Source: Pseudomonadota bacterium (lineage in GTDB: Bacteria; Pseudomonadota; Alphaproteobacteria; Acetobacterales; Acetobacteraceae). From it: a stretch of DNA of 64,000 nt. Shown one piece after another: positions 5,161 through 15,417 of this stretch. Position 1 is the first letter of the stretch, and the number at the start of each line of letters is the position of its first letter. The position numbers were made by a program, and so were the translations under genes. Location of the stretch: positions 62,001 through 126,000 of the forward strand of contig JAJZES010000045.1 in assembly GCA_021845985.1 (NCBI GenBank), given 5' to 3'. The notes under the pieces were generated by a model. It had not been told where the DNA came from and searched no databases. It saw only the letters and a list, made by a program, of their open reading frames with translations.

Positions 5161-6848
5161 GCGGACACTCCTGGAGCGTTGATCTGGGTCGCCCTGGCGG
5201 CTTCCTCGTCGCGCAGCGCGCGCGCCAACAGCTTGCCGGCCGGGCTGCGCGGCAAGGCGTCGCGCAGTTCAAGTGCGGCGGGCATTTCGTGCCGTCCGAT
5301 CCGCTCGGCGAGAAATGCGCGCAATGTCTCCAGCGTCAAGGGTGCCGCGCCTTGCCGCAGGGTGACGAACGCCTTGGCCGCCTGCCCGCGATACGCATCG
5401 GCGATGCCGATGACGATGACCTCGGCCACGTCGGGATGCTCGTAGATGGCGTTCTCGATCACCGTCGGATAGACGTTGAAGCCGCCGGAGATGATCATGT
5501 TCTTCTTGCGGTCGAGAATGCGGCACAGCCCGTGCGCGTCCATCGCGCCGATGTCGCCGGTGAGGAAATATCCGTCATGGAAGGCGGCGGCGGTTTCCTC
5601 CGGCCGGTTCCAGTAGCCGGCAAACACGTTGGGCCCGCGGATGGCGAATTCGCCGATCTCGTCCGGGCCGAGCACGCGCCCCGGATCGTCACGATCGACC
5701 ACGCGCATGTCGAGGCCGGGCAGCGGAATGCCAATCAGTCCCGGCCGCGGCGTCGCCGCTTCGGGAATGCGGGTGCCGGCGGGCGAGGTTTCCGTCATGC
5801 CCCAGCCGCCGCCGAGCCGCTGCCCGATCAGCCGCTCGACCCGCTGCTCGACCTCGAACGGCAGCGGCGCGCCACCGCAGGTGGCCAGTTCGAGCGAGGA
5901 GAAATCGGCCCCCGCCGCATCCGGATGGTTGACCAGCGCGATGAACATGGTCGGCACGCCGGCGAACGCCGCCGCCCGCTTGCGCGCGATGTCGTCGATC
6001 AGCGTTGCGACATCGAAGCGCATGTGCAACAGCAATTCGTTGCCCTCGGCAAGCTGGCGCAGCAGCAGCGTGGTCAGTGCGTAGATATGAAACAGCGGCA
6101 GCACCGCAATGACGCGCTGCGGCAACCCGCTCCGGCCCTGTCCGCCATCGGTCCAGTTGCGGTAGATGCTGACGGCGGCAGTCAGATTGCCGTGCGTCAG
6201 CATCGCCCCCTTGGGCATGCCGGTGGTGCCGCCGGTATATTGCAGCAGGCAGACATCGTCGGGCACGATCACCGGCCAGTGCGGCGGCGGCGGCGCCTGT
6301 GGCAACGGCCGCAGCCGCGCGTCGTAGGCCACCGGCAGCGGCGCGACGTCGCCCGGTCCCCAGTGCGCATCGTCACCGATCAGCACATGATCGACGGCAC
6401 CCTGCGCCAGCAAGGCCAGCGCCGCCGGCAGCATGCCGGGCAAATTGGTAGTGATCAGCGTACGCGCGCCGCTGTCGGCAAGCTTTAACGCCAGTTCGCG
6501 CGGCGCGTCGAGCGCGGAGAGATGCACCAGCCGCGCCCCGGTGCGCGCCGCGCCGAAGAAGGCGATCGGATGCCACGGCGTATTCGGCAGATAGAGCGCC
6601 ACCGTGTCACCCCGGCCGACACCCATCTCCAGCAGCCCGGCGGCGGTTTGGTCGGCGGCGGCGGCGAGGTCGTGATAGGTGATGCGCTGCTCGCGGAACG
6701 CGATGGCCGGTCGCTCGGCGAAGTCGGCGGCGGCCTGCTGCAGCAGCGCCGGCACGCTGCCCTGGACCACCTTGGCGCCCCAGTCGGCGGCGTCGGGAAA
6801 GGCGATGTGCCAGGGCCGCCGGGCGGCCGGATCGTGGTTGGACGTCAC
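5157..6848 (-). CDS. AMP-forming acyl-CoA synthetase (long-chain fatty acid/dicarboxylate CoA ligase type)
   Basis: About 563 residues from a GTG start at 6848, preceded by AGGGAGA; an in-frame ATG at 6959 adds a low-quality extension. The adenylation motif is [20 protein letters not shown], followed by [26 protein letters not shown] and [33 protein letters not shown] near the end carries the catalytic lysine. The enzyme activates a carboxylic acid to its CoA thioester using ATP. It heads the four-gene operon, which makes it the likely entry step. The order ligase, thiolase, large and small dehydrogenase matches pimA-pimB-pimC-pimD, suggesting a medium or dicarboxylic acid, but homology searching is needed. 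Confidence 0.88.
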
Positions 6849-7041
6849 GTTGATGTCTCCCTGCGCGCACTCTGCCCGCCGGCCGGGGCGGCGGCAAGCC
6901 GCACCTGGGGGCGCCGCGCCCACGCTGCCGCCGCACCGCATGAGGGTCGCGGAGTTCATCGCCCGCGGGCCGTTGCGCGATGGCGCGCGGTAACCTGCTC
7001 CGCCGCCAGCGACAGCGTCGCGGTGGCGGACCCGGTGACGC

Positions 7042-8040
7042 CTATCGCCGCCCGGGGCCGACCTGAGCCAGTTCCTCGGGCAGCACCGCGGCGATCATCG
7101 CCAGCACCTCGGCCACCTGCCGCCGCCGCCAGCCATCGGCGCCGTCCAGCAGGTGCGGCAAGGCCGCGCGGAACTGCGCCGCCTCCTGCAGCAGCAGTTC
7201 GCGCCAGCGGGTGCGGAAGATGCGGGGCGCATCGTGCATCAGTTGCGCCCGCTCGGCGGCCGGCAGCCGCGCCACGGCGAAGGTCTCGACATGCGCATAG
7301 GCGGTGGTGATCAGCGGCACCATCCAGCGCAATTCGGCGATGCTGTCATCGAGCGGCAGGCCGCGCTGCGCCGCCTCGGTCATCGCCCGGGCGATGCGGC
7401 GCACCGGTTTGCCGGGATCGCGGCGCAGATAGAGCAGTTCCGGCACATGGCGGATTTCCCCGTACAGCGCCAGCTCGGCCAGCGCCGCATGGTCCCACCC
7501 CGCGGTCGGCCGGAACCGCGCCAGTTGCGCCACCGCCGCACGCCGGTACACGCCCCAGAAGCTCGGCGCGCTGGTATAGCGGGTCATCACGCTGCGCGCC
7601 CGCGCCAGCCGGTCCGGCCCCACCGCATGCAGCCGGTGGGTGGCCGGATAGACCGACTGCACCACCCCGTCACCGCCGAACACCAGCCCGCCGGCATGGC
7701 ACATGGCGCATTCGGGATACGCGCGCAGCACCGCCATCGCCTGGGCGACGAAGTCGGGCGCCAGCAGGTCATCGGCGGTCTTCGGCATGACGAACTCCGC
7801 CGCACCGCAGGCGAAGGCACGCTCGCAATTCGCCGTCAGCCCGATATCGACCGGCGCGCGCAGCAACCGCAGCGCATCGCCATAATGCCGCACGATCTCC
7901 ACCGTGCGATCGGTGGAGGCGTTGTCGAGCACGGTCAGCGTCAGCGCCGGCCAGCTCTGCGCCAGCACGCTTTCGATCGCGGCGGCGATGGTCGCCTCGC
8001 CGTTGCGCACGAACAGCGCCACATCAACCGTCGGCGTCAT
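7042..8040 (-). CDS. Family 2 glycosyltransferase
   Basis: A 332-residue GT-A fold glycosyltransferase starting MTPTVDVALFVRNGEATIAA. The nucleotide-binding N-terminal pattern includes SVLAQSWPALTLTVLDNAST. KTADDLLAPDF near residue 90 supplies the metal-binding acidic motif. No membrane segment is seen. The ATG overlaps the stop of the GT41 glycosyltransferase by four bases, so the two are co-translated. As the last gene of the hook-filament arm, it probably extends or makes a glycan placed on flagellin. This role is inferred from position; its donor and acceptor sugars are unknown. Confidence 0.85.
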   Translation of the reverse strand: MTPTVDVALFVRNGEATIAAAIESVLAQSWPALTLTVLDNASTDRTVEIVRHYGDALRLLRAPVDIGLTANCERAFACGAAEFVMPKTADDLLAPDFVAQAMAVLRAYPECAMCHAGGLVFGGDGVVQSVYPATHRLHAVGPDRLARARSVMTRYTSAPSFWGVYRRAAVAQLARFRPTAGWDHAALAELALYGEIRHVPELLYLRRDPGKPVRRIARAMTEAAQRGLPLDDSIAELRWMVPLITTAYAHVETFAVARLPAAERAQLMHDAPRIFRTRWRELLLQEAAQFRAALPHLLDGADGWRRRQVAEVLAMIAAVLPEELAQVGPGRR

Positions 8041-10337
8041 GCGCAGGCATCCCGCCACATCGCCCGCAGCGCGTCACCGAGGGCGCGGCCGAAGCGCGGC
8101 GCATCACATAGCGGGCTGGCCGCCATGCGCGGGCGCAAATCCCCGCGCAGTGCCGCCAGCCGGTCGCGGTCGGCGGCGCGGCGCACGGCGATCTCGACAT
8201 ACGCAGCGCGGTCGGCGGCGACCCAGTCGGTCAGCCCGACATTGCTCAGATGCGACAATGAATGGCGTGAGGCGAAGCTGCCGCCCGGCAGCGTCACCAC
8301 CGGCACACCCATCCACAGCGCCTCGCAGGTGGTCAGGCCACCGGAATAGGGGAACGGGTCGAGCACCACATGCGCCGCCGCATGCGCCGCCAGATGCGCG
8401 CGATGCGGCGTGGCGCCTTGCAGATCGAGCCGGTCGGCGGCGATGCCCTCGGCGGCGAAGGCAGCGGCGATGCGCGCCGCGGTCGCCGGATCGCCGAACT
8501 GGTTGGCCTTCAGCAGCAGCCGCGATTGCGGCACCCGGCGCAGGATCGCCGCCCAGGTGGCGATCACCAGCGGGGTGATCTTCGCCAGGTTGTTGAAACA
8601 GGCGAAGGTCGTTTCGCCCTCCGGCAGCGGTGCAACCTCGGGCGCCTGCACCGGCGGAGTGTAGCAGACATAGCCGTCCGGCATGCGGAACAGCCGTTCG
8701 GTGTAGAAGCATTCGGTGCCGGCCGGGGTCTGCCAGCGATCGGTCAGCATCCAGTCGATTGCTGCCAGCCCGGTGGTGGCCGACTGGTTGCCGACCCATT
8801 TGACCTGCACCGGCGCCGGCCGCTCGGCGCAGGCGGCGAGCATGCCGTCATCGCCCCAGCCGCCGAGATCGATCAGCACGTCGATGCCGCGCGCCCGCAC
8901 CCGCGCCGCGACCTCCGCCGGCGGTCGCAGCACGACCTCATGCCACTCGGCGGCGACGGCAGCGAAGCGGCGCTGCAGCGGGTCGGCGGAGGGCGCCTGA
9001 GCAAAACAGACCAGCTCGAACGCCTCGGGATCGAGATGCTCGAAACCGGCGACGGTCAGCCAGCCGACCGGATGGGTGCGCAGCTTCGGCGACAGCAGCC
9101 CGAGGCGCAGCCGCCGCCCCGGATCATGCGCCAGGACGCCGGCGGCCGGGCGCGGCGGCAGCGTCGCCGCGGCGCGCTCGGCGATGCTGCGCAGCGCCGC
9201 CGCATCGTCCTCGGCATAGACCAGCGCCGCCGCCAGGGTGCGCCAGGCGAGATGCATCTCGGGCGCCAGCTCGCCCGCCCGCCGCGCCGCCGCGACGCCT
9301 GCGCGCTGCTCGCCGAGCAGCACCAGCGCATTGGCGAGATTGCACAGACACTCGGGAACCTCGCCAATCTCGGCGATCAGGTCGGCGAGCAGGTCGCGGG
9401 CTTCGGCGTAATGATGGATGCGGGTCAGCGCCGCCGCCAGATTGTTGCGCAGCGCGATGTCGCCCGGCGCCAGGTGCAGCGCCCGGCGCAGCGCCGCCAC
9501 CGCGGCATGCAAACGCGGGGTGCGCAGCAGCGCCTCGGCCAGCGCCAGCGCCGGCTCGGCCGCGTCCGGCGCCAGCGTCGCCGCCAGCGCCAGCGTATCC
9601 GCCGCCTCGTTGGCGCGGCCGAGCCAGTGCAGCAGCGCCCCGCGCGCCGTCGTGGCAGCGGCGTCGAGCGGGTCGGCCGCGCTCAGCCGAACCAGCTCCG
9701 CCGCCCCCTGCCCCGCCGCCTGTGCCGCCTGGGTCCGCCGCAGGGCATAGCCGATCACCTCCGGGCGCAGCCGCGCCGCCTCGGCATAGGCGGCGGCGGC
9801 AAGCGCGGGGTCGGGCGTGGCGCGGCCGAGCGCGTCCCACGCCTCCGCCCGTGCCGGCGCCAACGCGCAGCCGCGCAGCAGCAGACGCCGCGCCGGCTCG
9901 CGCTCACCGGCCACCAGCAGCAGCGCCGCCAGCCCGATCAGCGCCTCCACCCGATCGGGGTTGATGGTCAACGTGCGTTCATAGGCGGCACAGGCGCCGG
10001 CCGCATCGCCGGCCCGCCGCAGACTCTCGGCGAGCCGCAGCGGCGGCTCGTCCCAGCCGGGATGCTCGCCGGCCAGCGCCTGCATGGCGCTGCGGCCGTC
10101 GTCACCGAGCCGGTCTTCCGCCAGCGCCAGATTGAGCCGCGTCGCCGGCGAGTGGTCGCCGCCCGCCGTCGCCGCCGCCAGCGAGTCGCGGGCGGCCGGC
10201 CAATCCGCCGTCGCCAGCCGCGCCATGCCGCGCACGGCGTGATCTTCCGCGTCCTGCGGCGCGGTCAGCAGGGCCAGTGCCCCGGCATGGTCGCCCCCGG
10301 CGAGCCGCGCCAGCGCCCGCTGCGCGAGGCGGCTCAT
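8037..10337 (-). CDS. TPR-GT41 (OGT/SPINDLY-type) glycosyltransferase, probable FlmG-like flagellin O-glycosyltransferase
   Basis: A 766-residue, two-part protein. Residues about 1-390 are tetratricopeptide-like helical repeats (for example AYERTLTINPDRVEALIGLA). The C-terminal half is a family 41 catalytic domain. SPKLRTHPVG holds the conserved histidine (about residue 422), FNNLAKITPLVIATW holds the UDP-contact lysine (about 586), and DPFPYSGGLTTCEALW (from about 660) is the donor-site motif. In Caulobacter, FlmG has this TPR plus GT41 layout and glycosylates flagellin. Here the gene lies downstream of flagellin, flbT and flaF, which supports the same job. It overlaps both neighbours by four bases. 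The nucleotide sugar donor is not known. Confidence 0.85.
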   Translation of the reverse strand: MSRLAQRALARLAGGDHAGALALLTAPQDAEDHAVRGMARLATADWPAARDSLAAATAGGDHSPATRLNLALAEDRLGDDGRSAMQALAGEHPGWDEPPLRLAESLRRAGDAAGACAAYERTLTINPDRVEALIGLAALLLVAGEREPARRLLLRGCALAPARAEAWDALGRATPDPALAAAAYAEAARLRPEVIGYALRRTQAAQAAGQGAAELVRLSAADPLDAAATTARGALLHWLGRANEAADTLALAATLAPDAAEPALALAEALLRTPRLHAAVAALRRALHLAPGDIALRNNLAAALTRIHHYAEARDLLADLIAEIGEVPECLCNLANALVLLGEQRAGVAAARRAGELAPEMHLAWRTLAAALVYAEDDAAALRSIAERAAATLPPRPAAGVLAHDPGRRLRLGLLSPKLRTHPVGWLTVAGFEHLDPEAFELVCFAQAPSADPLQRRFAAVAAEWHEVVLRPPAEVAARVRARGIDVLIDLGGWGDDGMLAACAERPAPVQVKWVGNQSATTGLAAIDWMLTDRWQTPAGTECFYTERLFRMPDGYVCYTPPVQAPEVAPLPEGETTFACFNNLAKITPLVIATWAAILRRVPQSRLLLKANQFGDPATAARIAAAFAAEGIAADRLDLQGATPHRAHLAAHAAAHVVLDPFPYSGGLTTCEALWMGVPVVTLPGGSFASRHSLSHLSNVGLTDWVAADRAAYVEIAVRRAADRDRLAALRGDLRPRMAASPLCDAPRFGRALGDALRAMWRDACA

Positions 10338-11626
10338 GCCGGGCGCTCCAGCAGGCCGATCATACCGGGCACCGGCGCGTCGTGTTCGAAGCGCACCACC
10401 TCGGCGCGCAGCAGCACCACCGACAGCCCGGCGGCGGCGGCGGCGGCCGCGAGATGGGCGGGCGCATGGGCAAACCGCCCCTGCGGGCCGAGCCGCCAGC
10501 CCGCCGCCTCGCCGGGCAGCGTCTCGGCCGAGAACAAAAACCGCCCGCCGGGCGCCAGCCGCGCCGCGACGCCGCCGAACAGCGTCACCAGACTGCCGAA
10601 ATAGGGCAGCACGTCGCCGGCCAGCACGAGGCCGAAGCGGCGCCGTTCGGCGGCCAGATAGGCCGGCAGATCGGCCTCGAACAATTCGGCATAGAGGCCG
10701 CGCGCCGCCGCCGCGGCGAGCATGCGCGGCGCCAGATCGACGCCGATGAACGTCCCGAGGTTGAGGTCCGACAGCGCCACCGCCATCAGCCCGGTGCCGC
10801 AGCCGAGATCGAGCACCGGCCCGCGCGCCTCCGCCAGCAGCGCCCGCGCGACACCCGGAATGCGATAGCCGAGGCCAAGCAGGTGCAGGTCGAAATGCGC
10901 CGCATAGCCGTCGAACACGACGCGGATATAATCGGCCGGGGCGCGCCCGAGGTCGCGCGCCAGTCCCGACGCCGCGGCGAGGTGGCGGACATAGAGGTCC
11001 TCCGGCGCCAGCGCCAGCGCCGCCGCATAGGTCGGCGCCGCCGCCGCATGCCGGCCGAGGCTGGACTGCGCGTGGCCGAGCAGCCCGAGCACGCAGGCAT
11101 CGGTCGCCCCTTCGGCGCGCGCCGCCTCGCCGAGTGCCACCGCATTGGCGAAGTCGCGCTGCCCGACCAGCAGCAGCATTGCCGCGGCGGTCAGAAGTGG
11201 GTCACGCGCCGGGCCTTGCGTCAAGGTCACCAGCGCCGCCGCCGTATCGCCGCACGCCGCCTGCGCCGACGACAGCGCCAGCCGCACCGCGACATCGCCC
11301 GAGCGCAGCGCCAGTGCCGCCAGCAGATGCGCCCGCGCCGCCGCCGCGCCGCCGCTCTCCAGCAGCATCCGCCCGAGCAGCAGCCGCAGCGCCGGCGCCT
11401 GCGGAAACGTCGCCACGCCGCGGTCGAGCAGCGCCCGCGCCTCCGCCGTCCGGCCCTCCTCGATGGCGAGCAGCGCCTCGACTTCCCACAACTCGGCCGA
11501 GGCTGGCGCGATCCGCGCCACCGCGCTCAGCAGCGGGCGGGCGGCGGCGAGGCGGCCGGCATCGACCATGCGGCGCAGATGGCGCACCAGGGCCGGCACA
11601 TCCTGTGCCGGGGCAACGTGTGACAT
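10334..11626 (-). CDS. TPR-repeat SAM-dependent methyltransferase
   Basis: A 430-residue fusion. Residues about 1-235 form TPR-like helices (LLDRGVATFPQAPALRLLLG, AALALAPEDLYVRHLAAASG). These are followed by a class I methyltransferase domain with GPVLDLGCGTGLMAVALSDL near residue 270, FIGVDLAPRMLAAA, and LVLAGDVLPYFGSL. It starts at ATG 11626 with GGGAG upstream. It overlaps the TPR-GT41 gene by four bases. Two consecutive enzymes with TPR heads suggest that both dock on the same acceptor. Methylation of flagellin or of its glycan is my inference; the family itself does not prove a substrate. Confidence 0.8.
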   Translation of the reverse strand: MSHVAPAQDVPALVRHLRRMVDAGRLAAARPLLSAVARIAPASAELWEVEALLAIEEGRTAEARALLDRGVATFPQAPALRLLLGRMLLESGGAAAARAHLLAALALRSGDVAVRLALSSAQAACGDTAAALVTLTQGPARDPLLTAAAMLLLVGQRDFANAVALGEAARAEGATDACVLGLLGHAQSSLGRHAAAAPTYAAALALAPEDLYVRHLAAASGLARDLGRAPADYIRVVFDGYAAHFDLHLLGLGYRIPGVARALLAEARGPVLDLGCGTGLMAVALSDLNLGTFIGVDLAPRMLAAAAARGLYAELFEADLPAYLAAERRRFGLVLAGDVLPYFGSLVTLFGGVAARLAPGGRFLFSAETLPGEAAGWRLGPQGRFAHAPAHLAAAAAAAGLSVVLLRAEVVRFEHDAPVPGMIGLLERPA

Positions 11627-11660
11627 GGGACAACTCCCGTTCTGGGATGGCGTGTCGGCA

Positions 11661-12482
11661 TCAGGCGACGATCCCGGCGGCCTGGATCGCCAGGCTGTCC
11701 ATGCTCGGTGCGGTCTGCGTCGTCGCTGCCTGCTGCTGCATATTCAGCAGATACTGGTCGGTGATGGTCTGCACGAATTTGGGGTCGGAGAAGCGGCTGA
11801 TGTCGATTTGCGAAGTGATCGCCAGACCCTGCGCGGTGAGGTCCTGGAAGGCGATCTGCAGGGGGATGTTGAGCGCCGTGGTGACGACGCTGCGCATCGT
11901 CGGATCGCCGAGGATCTGATCGACCGAGGTGATGGTGCTGGCGCTGGATAGGAAGCTCAGCGCATTGGACAGGCCGGGCGTGGTGGTGTTGAGCGAATTC
12001 AGCCAGGTCTGCTGGGCATAGTTGTCGGTGATGGTGGCGATCACGCTCGGCGTCTGGATCACCGACAGGCCCTGGGTGGCGAAGTTGTAGGTCTGGTTGA
12101 CCGTCTTCCAGCGCGTGTCGCTCAACTGATTGACCAGTGACGCGGTGTTCGACGGATCGGACAGCAATGCCTGCGAGGCCAGCGCGGTGAAGCCGATCTG
12201 GTCGCTCATGCCGCTGGCCGTCAGCAGCACTTTCATCACCGCCGGATTGGCCAGCAATTGCGCCGGCGAGGTGGCGCTGTTCACTCCCTGGGTAAAGGCG
12301 GCGATGTCGCGCGCGATGGCCGGTTGCGCCGCCACCTGCGCGACATCCTGAGTCTGCTTCTGCTGCGCGATCTGCAGCGCCTGCACCGGATTGCCGCCGG
12401 ACGCGCTGCTGCCGTACAGCGCCGACAGGATCGGGTCGGTGATGCCGGCGGCGCCGGTGAACAGCGACAGCAGACCCGACAT
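11661..12482 (-). CDS. DUF1217 family protein, flagellar locus
   Basis: A 273-residue protein from MSGLLSLFTGAAGITDPI to QAAGIVA. It has repeated helical units of the form ...RWKTVNQTYNFATQGL and FSDPKFVQTITDQYLLNMQQ, typical of DUF1217 proteins. These occur in flagellar clusters of alphaproteobacteria, and no biochemical function is established that I know of. It lacks a signal peptide and membrane segments. The Ser/Thr/Gln-rich content resembles secreted axial proteins, so export through the flagellar apparatus is possible. It starts five bases after the flaF stop and belongs to the same operon. The start was chosen at ATG 12482 because upstream sequence in that frame is arginine-rich shadow. 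Confidence 0.8.
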   Translation of the reverse strand: MSGLLSLFTGAAGITDPILSALYGSSASGGNPVQALQIAQQKQTQDVAQVAAQPAIARDIAAFTQGVNSATSPAQLLANPAVMKVLLTASGMSDQIGFTALASQALLSDPSNTASLVNQLSDTRWKTVNQTYNFATQGLSVIQTPSVIATITDNYAQQTWLNSLNTTTPGLSNALSFLSSASTITSVDQILGDPTMRSVVTTALNIPLQIAFQDLTAQGLAITSQIDISRFSDPKFVQTITDQYLLNMQQQAATTQTAPSMDSLAIQAAGIVA

Positions 12483-12487
12483 CGCCG

Positions 12488-12841
12488 CTACCCCGCGCGA
12501 TCCAGGCCGGCGGCGATATTCTCGTTGACGGCAACGAGAAAGCCGAAATCCGGGGTGGTGCTGCGCATCTCGCGCTGCACCGCCAGGCCAACCGAAATGA
12601 TCGAGGCGCGCAAGCCTTCCGGCAGCGCGTTCGCCGGGTCGCGCAACAGGTCGATCACCATCGTCCACAGCCGCTCATTGTCGGCCAGGGCGCGCGAGCG
12701 GGCGACGCCGTCGCGTTGCGCGGCGCGGCGCAGGGCGGCGCCGACGCCGCGAAACAACTCGGCCTCCTGCGCCCGCGCCGGTCGCGCATCGGCGGCGGCA
12801 GCATAGGCGCGCATCGCCTGACGCTGAGCGGATGTCTGCAT
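12488..12841 (-). CDS. flaF: Flagellar biosynthesis regulator FlaF
   Basis: A 117-residue protein starting MQTSAQRQAMRAYAAAADAR, with NERLWTMVIDLLRDPANALP and LRASIISVGLAVQREM, the FlaF family pattern. GGAGA lies seven bases upstream of the ATG. In Caulobacter, FlaF is a secretion chaperone/partner that promotes flagellin production and opposes FlbT. It follows flbT by 25 bases, the standard alphaproteobacterial pairing. It should set flagellin output together with FlbT, acting in the cytoplasm. Confidence 0.92.
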   Translation of the reverse strand: MQTSAQRQAMRAYAAAADARPARAQEAELFRGVGAALRRAAQRDGVARSRALADNERLWTMVIDLLRDPANALPEGLRASIISVGLAVQREMRSTTPDFGFLVAVNENIAAGLDRAG

Positions 12842-12866
12842 TTTGCGATCTCCAATAAGCCGCCTG

Positions 12867-13271
12867 CTATTCAGGCTGGACACGACCGAGCACGGCATCC
12901 TCGTGGCGGATGATGCGGCGCGCCAGCTTGAGCGCCTGGTAGCACTGATCGGTCTCGGCGAGCGCCAGCGCGCGGCCGAGAATCTCGCGCACCAGTACCG
13001 AAGTGGTGGCACCGGAAAATTGCGCGATCAGGCCGCGGGCGGCACCAAGGCCGGTGGCCCGCTCCGCCTCGGTGCCGATATAGGCCGACTGCAGCGCAAA
13101 GTAGATGCGCCGCGCCGGGCTGTCGGCCTCCTCCGGCGCCATGATCTGCTTGCCGAACAGAAAGCGCGCATGCGCCGTCAGTTCGATGCGTGACTTGGTA
13201 CGGAAGCGGATCGGCGCGCCATTGACGATCATTGTATCGCCCTGACGTAGTTCCAGAACCAGCGTGGACAT
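12867..13271 (-). CDS. flbT: Flagellin mRNA regulator FlbT
   Basis: A 134-residue protein, MSTLVLELRQGDTMIVNGAP onward, with FLFGKQIMAPEEADSPARRI and YQALKLARRIIRHED, matching FlbT. In Caulobacter, FlbT binds the 5' leader of flagellin mRNA and destabilises it until the hook is complete. It sits just downstream of the flagellin gene. Its Shine-Dalgarno-like GAGGGGG and start codon lie inside a 9-bp inverted repeat (13269-13303), so its own translation may be controlled by RNA folding. Confidence 0.93.
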   Translation of the reverse strand: MSTLVLELRQGDTMIVNGAPIRFRTKSRIELTAHARFLFGKQIMAPEEADSPARRIYFALQSAYIGTEAERATGLGAARGLIAQFSGATTSVLVREILGRALALAETDQCYQALKLARRIIRHEDAVLGRVQPE

Positions 13272-13303
13272 GCGCCCCCTCGATCTTGCCGGATGGGCGC
13301 ATG
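13269..13303 (-). promoter_or_regulatory. Inverted repeat covering the flbT start codon and ribosome site
   Basis: CATGCGCCC at 13269-13277 and GGGCGCATG at 13295-13303 are exact reverse complements separated by 17 bases. In the flbT transcript the 3' arm contains the ATG and the end of the GAGGGGG ribosome site. A folded leader would therefore hide translation initiation. The repeat is seen directly; regulation by it is inference, and GC-rich DNA yields some repeats by chance. Confidence 0.5.
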
Positions 13304-13342
13304 GCCCCCTGCCCTCGCCGCGATGCTGCGCGGGCGCGCATA

Positions 13343-14203
13343 TCAGCGGAACAGGCTGAGCAGGCTGGATGGCGCCTGATTGGCGATCGACAGCGCCTGC
13401 GTGCCAAGCTGCTGCTGGATCTGCAGCGACTGCAGCTGCGCCGATTCCTGCGCCAGATTGGCATCGACCAGCGCGCCGAGGCCGTTGTTGAGCGCGGTGA
13501 TCTTGTCGCTGTTGTAGCTGACCTGGTTGGTGACGTAGTTGGTCGCGGAACCGTAGTTGTTGAGTTCGGTGCCGAGCTTGTTGGTCTGGTTGATGAACGT
13601 CGCCGCGGTGGCACTGGTGCCGATCAGGGCGGCAACCTGCGTCGCGCTGGCAAGCTGGGTGCCGGTGAAGTGGATTGACGTGTAGAGCGATGAGCCGCCG
13701 AAGGTGGCGATGTTGTAGGTGGCACCGGTCTCGTTGCGCACCACGTTGACGGCGCCGAAACTGCCGCTGCTGCCGGTGATGTTGCCGATCAGCGTTTTGC
13801 CGTTGTACGACGAATCTTCGATGTTGGACTTGATGTTGGTCAGCAGCGACTGGTACTGCTGGATATACTGGGTGCGCTGGGTACCCTGAGTATTGCCGTC
13901 GGCCAGCTTGACCAGCACGTCGCGGGCGCTGCTCATCAGATTCGAGACGTCGTTGAGGCCGGTGACGGTGATCGACAACAGGCCCTGGACGTTGCCGAGC
14001 TGCTGGTTGGCGCTGGTCAGCGCGCCGACATCGGAGCGCACGCGCTGCGCCACCGCATAGGCGGCGCCGTCATCGGTGGCGTCGGCGACGCGGTAGCCGG
14101 TGGAAATCTGCTTCTCGGTCGCCGTCAATGCGGTCTGGGTGCTTTCCAGCGACGCCAGGGCGATACTGGCGGCGGTGTTGGTGATGATCGGATTGAGGGC
14201 CAT
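13343..14203 (-). CDS. Flagellin
   Basis: A 286-residue flagellin. The N-terminal helix is conserved (MALNPIITNTAASIALASLE, then KQISTGYRVADATDDGAAYA). The C-terminal D0/D1 helix ends LQIQQQLGTQALSIANQAPS then SLLSLFR. The middle (about residues 135-205) is short and rich in Ser, Thr and Gly, offering O-glycosylation sites for the nearby GT41 enzyme. AAGGAAA precedes the ATG by about six bases. It is the filament subunit, exported by the flagellar type III system whose FlhA is encoded on the other arm. It lies between flgL and flbT, with a 104-base leader after the flgL stop. Confidence 0.95.
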   Translation of the reverse strand: MALNPIITNTAASIALASLESTQTALTATEKQISTGYRVADATDDGAAYAVAQRVRSDVGALTSANQQLGNVQGLLSITVTGLNDVSNLMSSARDVLVKLADGNTQGTQRTQYIQQYQSLLTNIKSNIEDSSYNGKTLIGNITGSSGSFGAVNVVRNETGATYNIATFGGSSLYTSIHFTGTQLASATQVAALIGTSATAATFINQTNKLGTELNNYGSATNYVTNQVSYNSDKITALNNGLGALVDANLAQESAQLQSLQIQQQLGTQALSIANQAPSSLLSLFR

Positions 14204-14239
14204 GTCTGCTTTCCTTGCTGACCGGACGGATCACATGCC

Positions 14240-14256
14240 CCCACTGTTTTGGTGGG
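14240..14256 (-). promoter_or_regulatory. Small stem-loop in the flagellin mRNA leader
   Basis: CCCAC and GTGGG pair across a 7-base A/T-containing loop about 40 bases upstream of the flagellin ATG. FlbT is known to act on flagellin leaders in Caulobacter, so this could be its target. Only five pairs are seen and no promoter was confidently identified in the leader. Confidence 0.3.
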
Positions 14257-14307
14257 CCGGGAGCGATCATGCAGCGACCATGTTAAGGGAGGGTGAAGTG
14301 CGGCGCA

Positions 14308-15417
14308 TTATCCGACCGTCGGCGTGATCAGCTTGGCCAGCGAGTAGGTCTGCAGGCCGTTGATGAGCTGATACGATGCCTGCAGCCGGGTCTGCATCTG
14401 CATCAGCGTTGACAATGTCTGTGCCATATCGACGCTTTGCACGCCGGAAAGCTGGGTGCTCAGCGCGGTCGCCGTGTCGCCGAGCGTGGTCTGCTCGGTG
14501 GCGAGGCTGGCCTGGGTGTTGCCGAGCACGCCGGCATCCTCGTTCAGCGCGGTGATGGCGCCGCCGAGGCTGCTGCGGACATCGGCAACCACGGCGGCAA
14601 AGCCCGGATCGTTGATCTGCGAACTGCTCAGCGAGCCGAGCGTCGCCAGCGCGCGCAGGATGTCACGACTGTACGACCCGGTGGTCGAGCTGCCGGTCGA
14701 GGCGACGAAGGCGTTGGCGCTGGCCGGAATGCCGATCGGCGCCGAGGTGCCCGGCCCGGTCGCCACGCTCGGCAGCGCCGCCTGCAGCACCGCCGCCGGC
14801 TGCGACATGCCCGGCGAGAACGGCGACACGCCGGGGGCGTTCGACGCGGCGGTGGCAAGCGTGCTGGCGATCACCGCCGGCGCCCCGGTGGTGGCGAGTC
14901 CGGCAACCGCCGACTGGATCGCGCTGTAGAAGCCCGAGCCGGTGATCGTGTCCGGGTTTGGCACCGGGGCATTGCTACTGTCCTGCCCGGCAAAGACGTA
15001 GGTGCCGCCATCGGTGCTGTCGAGCATCCCGGCGACCTGCGACAGCGCCTGACGCGCCGCGCTGGCGGTGCTGTCCACTTCGGAGGCGTTGAGGCCGTTG
15101 AGGTTGTTGGTGTCGGCATAGAAGGTCGAGGCGATGGCGCTGATCTGGGTCAGCGCCGTCTGCGCCACCTGCATCGGCCCGGTGGCGGCGTTGATGTCGT
15201 TCTGCCAGGCTTTGACACTGGCAAGCTGCGGCGCCACCGCCAGCGCGATACCGGCATTGCTGCCAAGCCCGGCATAGGTATCGGCGACATAGCCGCTGCC
15301 GGCCTGGGTGGTCAGCGTATCGAGCTGCTGGCGCACCGCGGCGCTGTCCTGCAACAGCGTGCCGGCAATGCCGCCGCCGAAGGCACCGAATTCGCCGCTC
15401 GCCGCGATCCCGCTCAT
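14308..15417 (-). CDS. flgL: Flagellar hook-associated protein 3 (hook-filament junction)
   Basis: A 369-residue flagellin-like axial protein. The N-terminus contains LLQDSAAVRQQLDTLTTQAG, then ADTYAGLGSNAGIALAVAPQ. The C-terminus is QSVDMAQTLSTLMQMQTRLQ and ASYQLINGLQTYSLAKLI, matching FlgL terminal helices. It forms the junction between FlgK and the flagellin filament and is exported without a cleaved signal. It follows flgK by about 25 bases and precedes the flagellin gene, so assembly order mirrors gene order. Confidence 0.9.
   Translation of the reverse strand: MSGIAASGEFGAFGGGIAGTLLQDSAAVRQQLDTLTTQAGSGYVADTYAGLGSNAGIALAVAPQLASVKAWQNDINAATGPMQVAQTALTQISAIASTFYADTNNLNGLNASEVDSTASAARQALSQVAGMLDSTDGGTYVFAGQDSSNAPVPNPDTITGSGFYSAIQSAVAGLATTGAPAVIASTLATAASNAPGVSPFSPGMSQPAAVLQAALPSVATGPGTSAPIGIPASANAFVASTGSSTTGSYSRDILRALATLGSLSSSQINDPGFAAVVADVRSSLGGAITALNEDAGVLGNTQASLATEQTTLGDTATALSTQLSGVQSVDMAQTLSTLMQMQTRLQASYQLINGLQTYSLAKLITPTVG

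Follow-up and report, generated by a model that had tools for sequence, protein, structure and literature searches.

A flagellin operon of Acetobacteraceae with a translationally coupled TPR-methyltransferase and a SPINDLY-like TPR-GT41 glycosyltransferase: a probable flagellin modification module

Introduction

What do the three enzyme genes that follow flagellin in this filament operon do to the filament, and from which sugar donor would they do it? Detailed knowledge of flagellin glycosylation by GT41-like enzymes comes from one system, in Caulobacter, which depends on pseudaminic acid. In the window analysed here (the whole stretch of DNA, 64,000 nucleotides in length), a first-pass annotation had described a TPR-methyltransferase (MT), a TPR-GT41 enzyme and a GT2 enzyme joined to the flagellin genes as a flagellin modification module. 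If this is true, it would represent a widespread version of that glycosylation without nonulosonic acids, in which the donor site is SPINDLY-like and a TPR-methyltransferase is coupled to the enzyme. A literature search, which left most subscription journals outside its reach, found no paper on flagellin glycosylation in Acetobacteraceae.

Organization of the filament operon

The operon consists of seven genes on one strand, all of them above their Pfam cut-offs (Table 1), and the order and families given by the first-pass annotation are exact to the base. Its statement that no promoter-sized gaps interrupt the series is likewise confirmed: from flagellin onward the intergenic gaps measure 71, 25, 5 and 34 bases, and a scan of positions 6700-14500 found no sigma-70-like promoter. 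The last three genes are joined by the two four-base ATGA overlaps that had been claimed. Terminator-like sites in the same interval are at chance level, with 2 present and 2.1 expected.

Table 1. Genes of the filament operon and the overlaps between them.
Feature	Position	Strand	Support
Flagellin, 286 aa, presumed acceptor	13343..14203	-	Pfam Flagellin_N 4e-18, Flagellin_C 4e-9
flbT	12867..13271	-	Pfam FlbT 1.8e-28
flaF, flagellin secretion chaperone/regulator, 117 aa from ATG 12841	12488..12841	-	Pfam FlaF 2.9e-20
DUF1217 gene, 273 aa from ATG 12482	11661..12482	-	Pfam DUF1217 2.5e-40
TPR-methyltransferase (MT), 430 aa	10334..11626	-	Pfam matches; AlphaFold2 model pLDDT 91.6
ATGA overlap, MT stop/GT41 start (translational coupling)	10334..10337	-	
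TPR-GT41 glycosyltransferase, 766 aa	8037..10337	-	Pfam Glyco_transf_41 3.3e-42; model pLDDT 91.7
ATGA overlap, GT41 stop/GT2 start	8037..8040	-	
GT2 glycosyltransferase, 332 aa from ATG 8040	7042..8040	-	Pfam Glycos_transf_2 4.7e-13

For the GT2 gene, the ATG at 8040 is preferred as the start over the listed GTG at 8058, which is less likely. An FlgL gene lies immediately upstream of flagellin on the same strand, and the genome holds a single full flagellin in addition to FlgL. The genes downstream of GT2, a CoA ligase (by Pfam) and then frames reading as a thiolase and acyl-CoA dehydrogenases, are unrelated to the flagellin module.

Conservation of the arrangement

The arrangement was surveyed in 120 sampled Acetobacteraceae genomes and in a genome collection (individual genomes are given G-numbers and loci L-numbers); some assemblies occur in both sets, and the two counts cannot be added. 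The clade of this GT41 occurs in 49 of the 120 genomes (about 40%). Flagellin is encoded on the same contig as GT41, within about 7 kb, in 43 of them, the remaining 6 being on contigs that end, and no clade member away from flagellin was found. In the collection, the order flagellin-flbT-flaF-(DUF1217)-MT-GT41 is present in 40 loci, counted as flagellin and/or flaF, MT and GT41 in series and belonging mostly to named or binned Acetobacteraceae and Roseomonadaceae. The closest GT41 relatives in this collection nearly all share the same flagellin setting, and in most of the 40 loci the MT stop and the GT41 start are at most about 10 bases apart.

Not every gene is equally constant. The DUF1217 gene is missing from part of the family's loci, as judged from synteny. 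An intact MT stands between flagellin and GT41 in 41 of the 49 genomes; of the other eight, three are broken by contig ends, four have a TPR-only protein instead, and in G031 both are missing. In the GT41 tree the enzymes form one clade with a support of 100, in which all members with readable neighbors are linked to flagellin, the others being cut loci. The flagellin-linked MTs of Acetobacteraceae also form one clade, with a support of 99.

An arrangement that recurs in 40 loci and in 43 of 49 genomes is not a product of chance and, since the linkage is conserved and no member was found elsewhere, flagellin glycosylation is well supported by gene context. The conserved linkage, the single clades and the intact catalytic residues described below uphold the idea of a flagellin modification module of the TPR-GT41 kind in the filament operon.

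Two loci, L006 and L015, carry Acetobacteraceae-like flagellin operons under Solirubrobacterales and Pirellulales titles, and are probably misbinned or misnamed assemblies.

The GT41 glycosyltransferase

The product of 8037-10337 is a GT41 enzyme, with a Glyco_transf_41 score of 144.9 bits against a cut-off of 25, and it is the only GT41 found in the genome by profile search. TPR helices occupy residues 3-391 and the catalytic domain about 405-765, so that both the TPR domain and the GT-B domain of an FlmG-type enzyme are present according to Pfam, the model and the fold. The catalytic His (about 422) and Lys (about 586) read from the sequence beforehand were located exactly, as H422 and K586, and are invariant in 35 of 35 aligned GT41 sequences. 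In the alignment H422 corresponds to OGT H558 and SPY H495, and K586 to OGT K842 and SPY K665. Structural work describes the lysine as essential, but the histidine as an active-site residue and not the base (PMC9715652).

The nearest solved protein is SPINDLY (SPY), ahead of OGT, both by profile (E 1.4e-145) and by Foldseek on the model (E 1.7e-45). Residues K610, A651, Y664 and E672 of the window enzyme match SPY K689, A731, Y744 and E752, and the three positions that discriminate SPINDLY from OGT, reported together with the SPY donor residues (PMC10027727), are all in the SPINDLY state (K610, A651 and Y664) and not in that of the OGT donor residues L866, R904 and C917. Across the 35 aligned clade members, position 610 is always Lys or Arg and position 664 always Tyr, while position 651 is variable. 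Since these states are widespread in bacterial GT41s, with K610/Y664 common even among unrelated ones, they are better evidence against OGT-type donor binding than in favor of fucose. At the positions of SPY S496, T747 and T748 the enzyme has P423, G667 and L668, which are invariant in the clade. The enzyme belongs to GT41 and is FlmG-like in its presumed action, but it differs from FlmG in the donor feature and from SPINDLY, the solved protein that it resembles most, in two features; the module is therefore reported as a distinct variant of GT41 flagellin modification.

The sugar donor

One reading of the enzyme would make it a nonulosonic acid transferase of the FlmG type, whose domain plan and presumed substrate it shares (PMC7591256). 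NeuB is absent, however, from this genome, which is 98.9% complete, and occurs in only 3 of the 120 Acetobacteraceae genomes (absent in 117); without NeuB there is no pseudaminic-type donor, and nonulosonic acid donors are thus excluded within the limits of a 98.9% complete assembly. G126, the only genome to combine NeuB with a flagellin-linked MT, does not help this reading either: it lacks an operonic GT41, and its one GT41, a 606 aa protein of the XcOGT kind, lies about 100 kb away. A transferase of this type is therefore extremely unlikely here, FlmG-like pseudaminic acid chemistry was rejected for want of NeuB, and FlmG, chosen at first as the model, is not supported as a chemical one. 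The SPINDLY likeness raises a different alternative, that of a bacterial SPINDLY-kind O-fucosyltransferase acting on flagellin, which would agree with the order of profile and fold matches and with the four matching residues. Its donor is the difficulty: no gmd was found in the genome at E<=1e-60 and the gene is also missing from 19 of the 49 GT41-bearing genomes, which makes GDP-fucose unlikely and disfavors it as a general donor; the co-occurrence of gmd and GT41 is not significant (Fisher p 0.06). The loss of the three SPY residues throughout the clade, the variability of position 651 and the frequency of K610/Y664 in unrelated enzymes count against it as well, and O-fucosylation is regarded as very unlikely. 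The genome encodes a ManC-type GDP-mannose enzyme, and the likely donor is GDP-mannose or a common UDP-hexose.

The TPR-methyltransferase

The MT combines TPRs (about residues 10-220) with a class I SAM fold (about 231-427), and its membership of the class I SAM methyltransferases follows from the Rossmann fold and motif I, seen in the model and in the fold matches. Motif I reads LDLGCGTG at 272-279, with DLGCG-G invariant in 37 aligned proteins. At 430 aa, the window protein is about one TPR unit shorter than its full-length relatives, most of which have about 465-490 aa. Fold comparison was dropped as a pointer to the methyl acceptor, because UbiG, NodS, NTMT1 and KijD1 are all similarly near and do not separate a sugar from a protein acceptor.

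The SAM domain is dispensable to GT41, being absent in five GT41-bearing genomes (G062, G079, G109, G123 and G031). In the first four of these (loci L148, L147, L156 and L151) a TPR-only open frame takes the place of the MT directly upstream of GT41, and G031 has GT41 with neither MT nor TPR-only frame. In G126 (L220, L221 and L145) the MT adjoins flagellin, and the combination with NeuB could reflect a swap to a nonulosonic acid system.

Flagellin-linked relatives of the MT are also found in other families of the class, in G467 (twice), G458, G368 and G299, in the orders flaF-DUF1217-MT (G467), FLAF-MT (G458) and FLA-MT-FLAF (G368). No GT41 was found anywhere in the G368 genome, although its MT lies beside flagellin. 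A single origin of the flagellin linkage is not supported, as the MT tree does not place these relatives with the Acetobacteraceae clade. Just upstream of flagellin, G368 has a 564 aa frame (L222 12056-13747) that begins with TPR-like sequence, matches nothing in Pfam or the PDB and might be the glycosyltransferase of this genome. In G458 (L192 3360-5975), flaF and MT adjoin a TPR protein whose C-terminal part gives a weak GT9-like match. G299, from another family of the class (L196, G299:C195), has 63 GT41 profile matches, often two per gene; two of its flagellin genes flank a series of GT41 genes, and a TPR-methyltransferase lies alongside. Other Acetobacteraceae have MT paralogues (L171-L176) at a distance of about 15 kb from flagellin; these form a separate clade, stand beside FlhA, FTHFS and other genes, and were left uncounted.

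Since the SAM domain can be absent while GT41 is present, and the MT can stand by flagellin without GT41, the methyl acceptor may be either the glycan or the flagellin protein, the glycan being the more likely. Two alternatives concern the MT and partly overlap with the glycan reading. In one, the MT methylates flagellin itself, independently of GT41, and both share the operon only through a common substrate. The flagellin-linked relatives in G467, G458 and G368, the last without any GT41, fit this idea, as do the MT that G126 keeps without an operonic GT41 and the protein N-methyltransferases among the structural neighbors; but methyltransferases acting on sugars and small molecules are structurally just as near, other glycosyltransferases could provide a glycan in G368 and G126, and in Acetobacteraceae the MT is nearly always directly upstream of GT41 and overlapping it. 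Protein methylation is regarded as rather unlikely. In the other, the MT serves mainly as a TPR scaffold for presenting flagellin to GT41, with methylation as an option. This would explain why four genomes have lost the SAM domain and kept a TPR-only frame upstream of GT41, G031 alone having neither, but 41 of the 49 genomes have an intact SAM motif, which the alignment shows to be invariant and which suggests that catalysis is usually under selection, and the remnants, short in G109 and weakly similar in G123, may be passing stages of loss. A scaffold role is a little less likely still. A more specific combination, in which the MT is primarily the flagellin-presenting subunit of a two-enzyme TPR complex and the SPINDLY-type GT41 uses a non-fucose GDP-sugar such as GDP-mannose, giving cytoplasmic O-mannosylation with optional methyl capping, appears distinctly improbable.

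The GT2 glycosyltransferase and possible acceptor sites

Judging from synteny, only a minority of the related loci carry the GT2 gene. In the window's genus and in some other genomes it immediately follows GT41; in Roseococcus it precedes flagellin, and elsewhere it is absent. In the loci without it, no common family was found among the genes downstream of GT41. The methylated, extended glycan suggested by the first-pass annotation is accordingly supported only in part: most loci lack GT2, five GT41-bearing genomes lack the MT domain, and in G368 the MT stands by flagellin without any GT41. Conserved Ser/Thr residues were set aside as a guide to acceptor sites: in the central region of flagellin, S171 is the only one conserved above 90%, and no clear sequon was found.

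Proposed mechanism

The module is probably a flagellin-dedicated, cytoplasmic O-glycosylation system encoded in the filament operon. Flagellin, FlbT and FlaF, the last acting in export, would be produced from one operon, and the TPR array of GT41 would dock flagellin, which its operon linkage points to as the acceptor, in a manner analogous to FlmG. Before export, the SPINDLY-type catalytic domain would transfer one sugar to surface Ser/Thr residues of the small central region, likely taking it from GDP-mannose or a common UDP-hexose, not from a nonulosonic acid and probably not from GDP-fucose. The translationally coupled MT may dock the same flagellin through its own TPR array and cap it with methyl groups, placed on the sugar more likely than on the protein, and in those lineages that have it GT2 may add a further sugar.

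If the module is indeed free of nonulosonic acids and SPINDLY-like, it would be well suited to asking what sugar is used by SPINDLY-like enzymes of bacteria and by what means TPR arrays select flagellin. Natural knock-outs are available in lineages that have lost the MT domain, the operonic GT41 or GT2, and cultured relatives bearing the module include Rhodopila globiformis, Roseococcus, Belnapia and Siccirubricoccus.

Comparison with known systems

Among flagellin-dedicated glycosyltransferases is GmaR from Listeria; both GmaR and the Clostridioides difficile type A system belong to other organisms and use glycosyltransferase families different from GT41. The type A modification is methyl-bearing (PMC4441256). 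Pseudomonas syringae has a dedicated methyltransferase for its flagellin glycan, VioM (PMC3927599), which provides, by description, a functional precedent for the methylation of flagellin glycans. However, the VioM gene belongs to a viosamine island that also carries dTDP-sugar genes, and the protein, with 241 aa, is too short for a TPR array comparable to that of the MT.

Within GT41, human OGT, XcOGT and TtOGT share the fold and the lysine equivalent to K842 with the window enzyme, but the overall similarity is below that of SPINDLY and L866/R904/C917 are K/A/Y here. SPINDLY, the GT41 protein O-fucosyltransferase of Arabidopsis, is the nearest solved structure over both the TPR and catalytic domains and has the donor-site Lys, Tyr and Glu in common with it, whereas its S496, T747 and T748 are unconserved here, gmd is lacking and the presumed substrate is different. 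FlmG from Caulobacter crescentus is, by description, a close functional counterpart; a control search showed that Caulobacter has a PF13844 match. FlmG has 596 aa, transfers pseudaminic acid and depends on NeuB, and two-hybrid tests showed binding of flagellins by its TPR domain (PMC7591256). Like the window GT41, it joins an N-terminal TPR array to a C-terminal GT-B domain and is presumed to modify flagellin in the cytoplasm before FlaF-dependent export. In contrast to FlmG, the enzyme described here is encoded within the flagellin operon, is coupled to a TPR-methyltransferase and belongs to a genome without NeuB.
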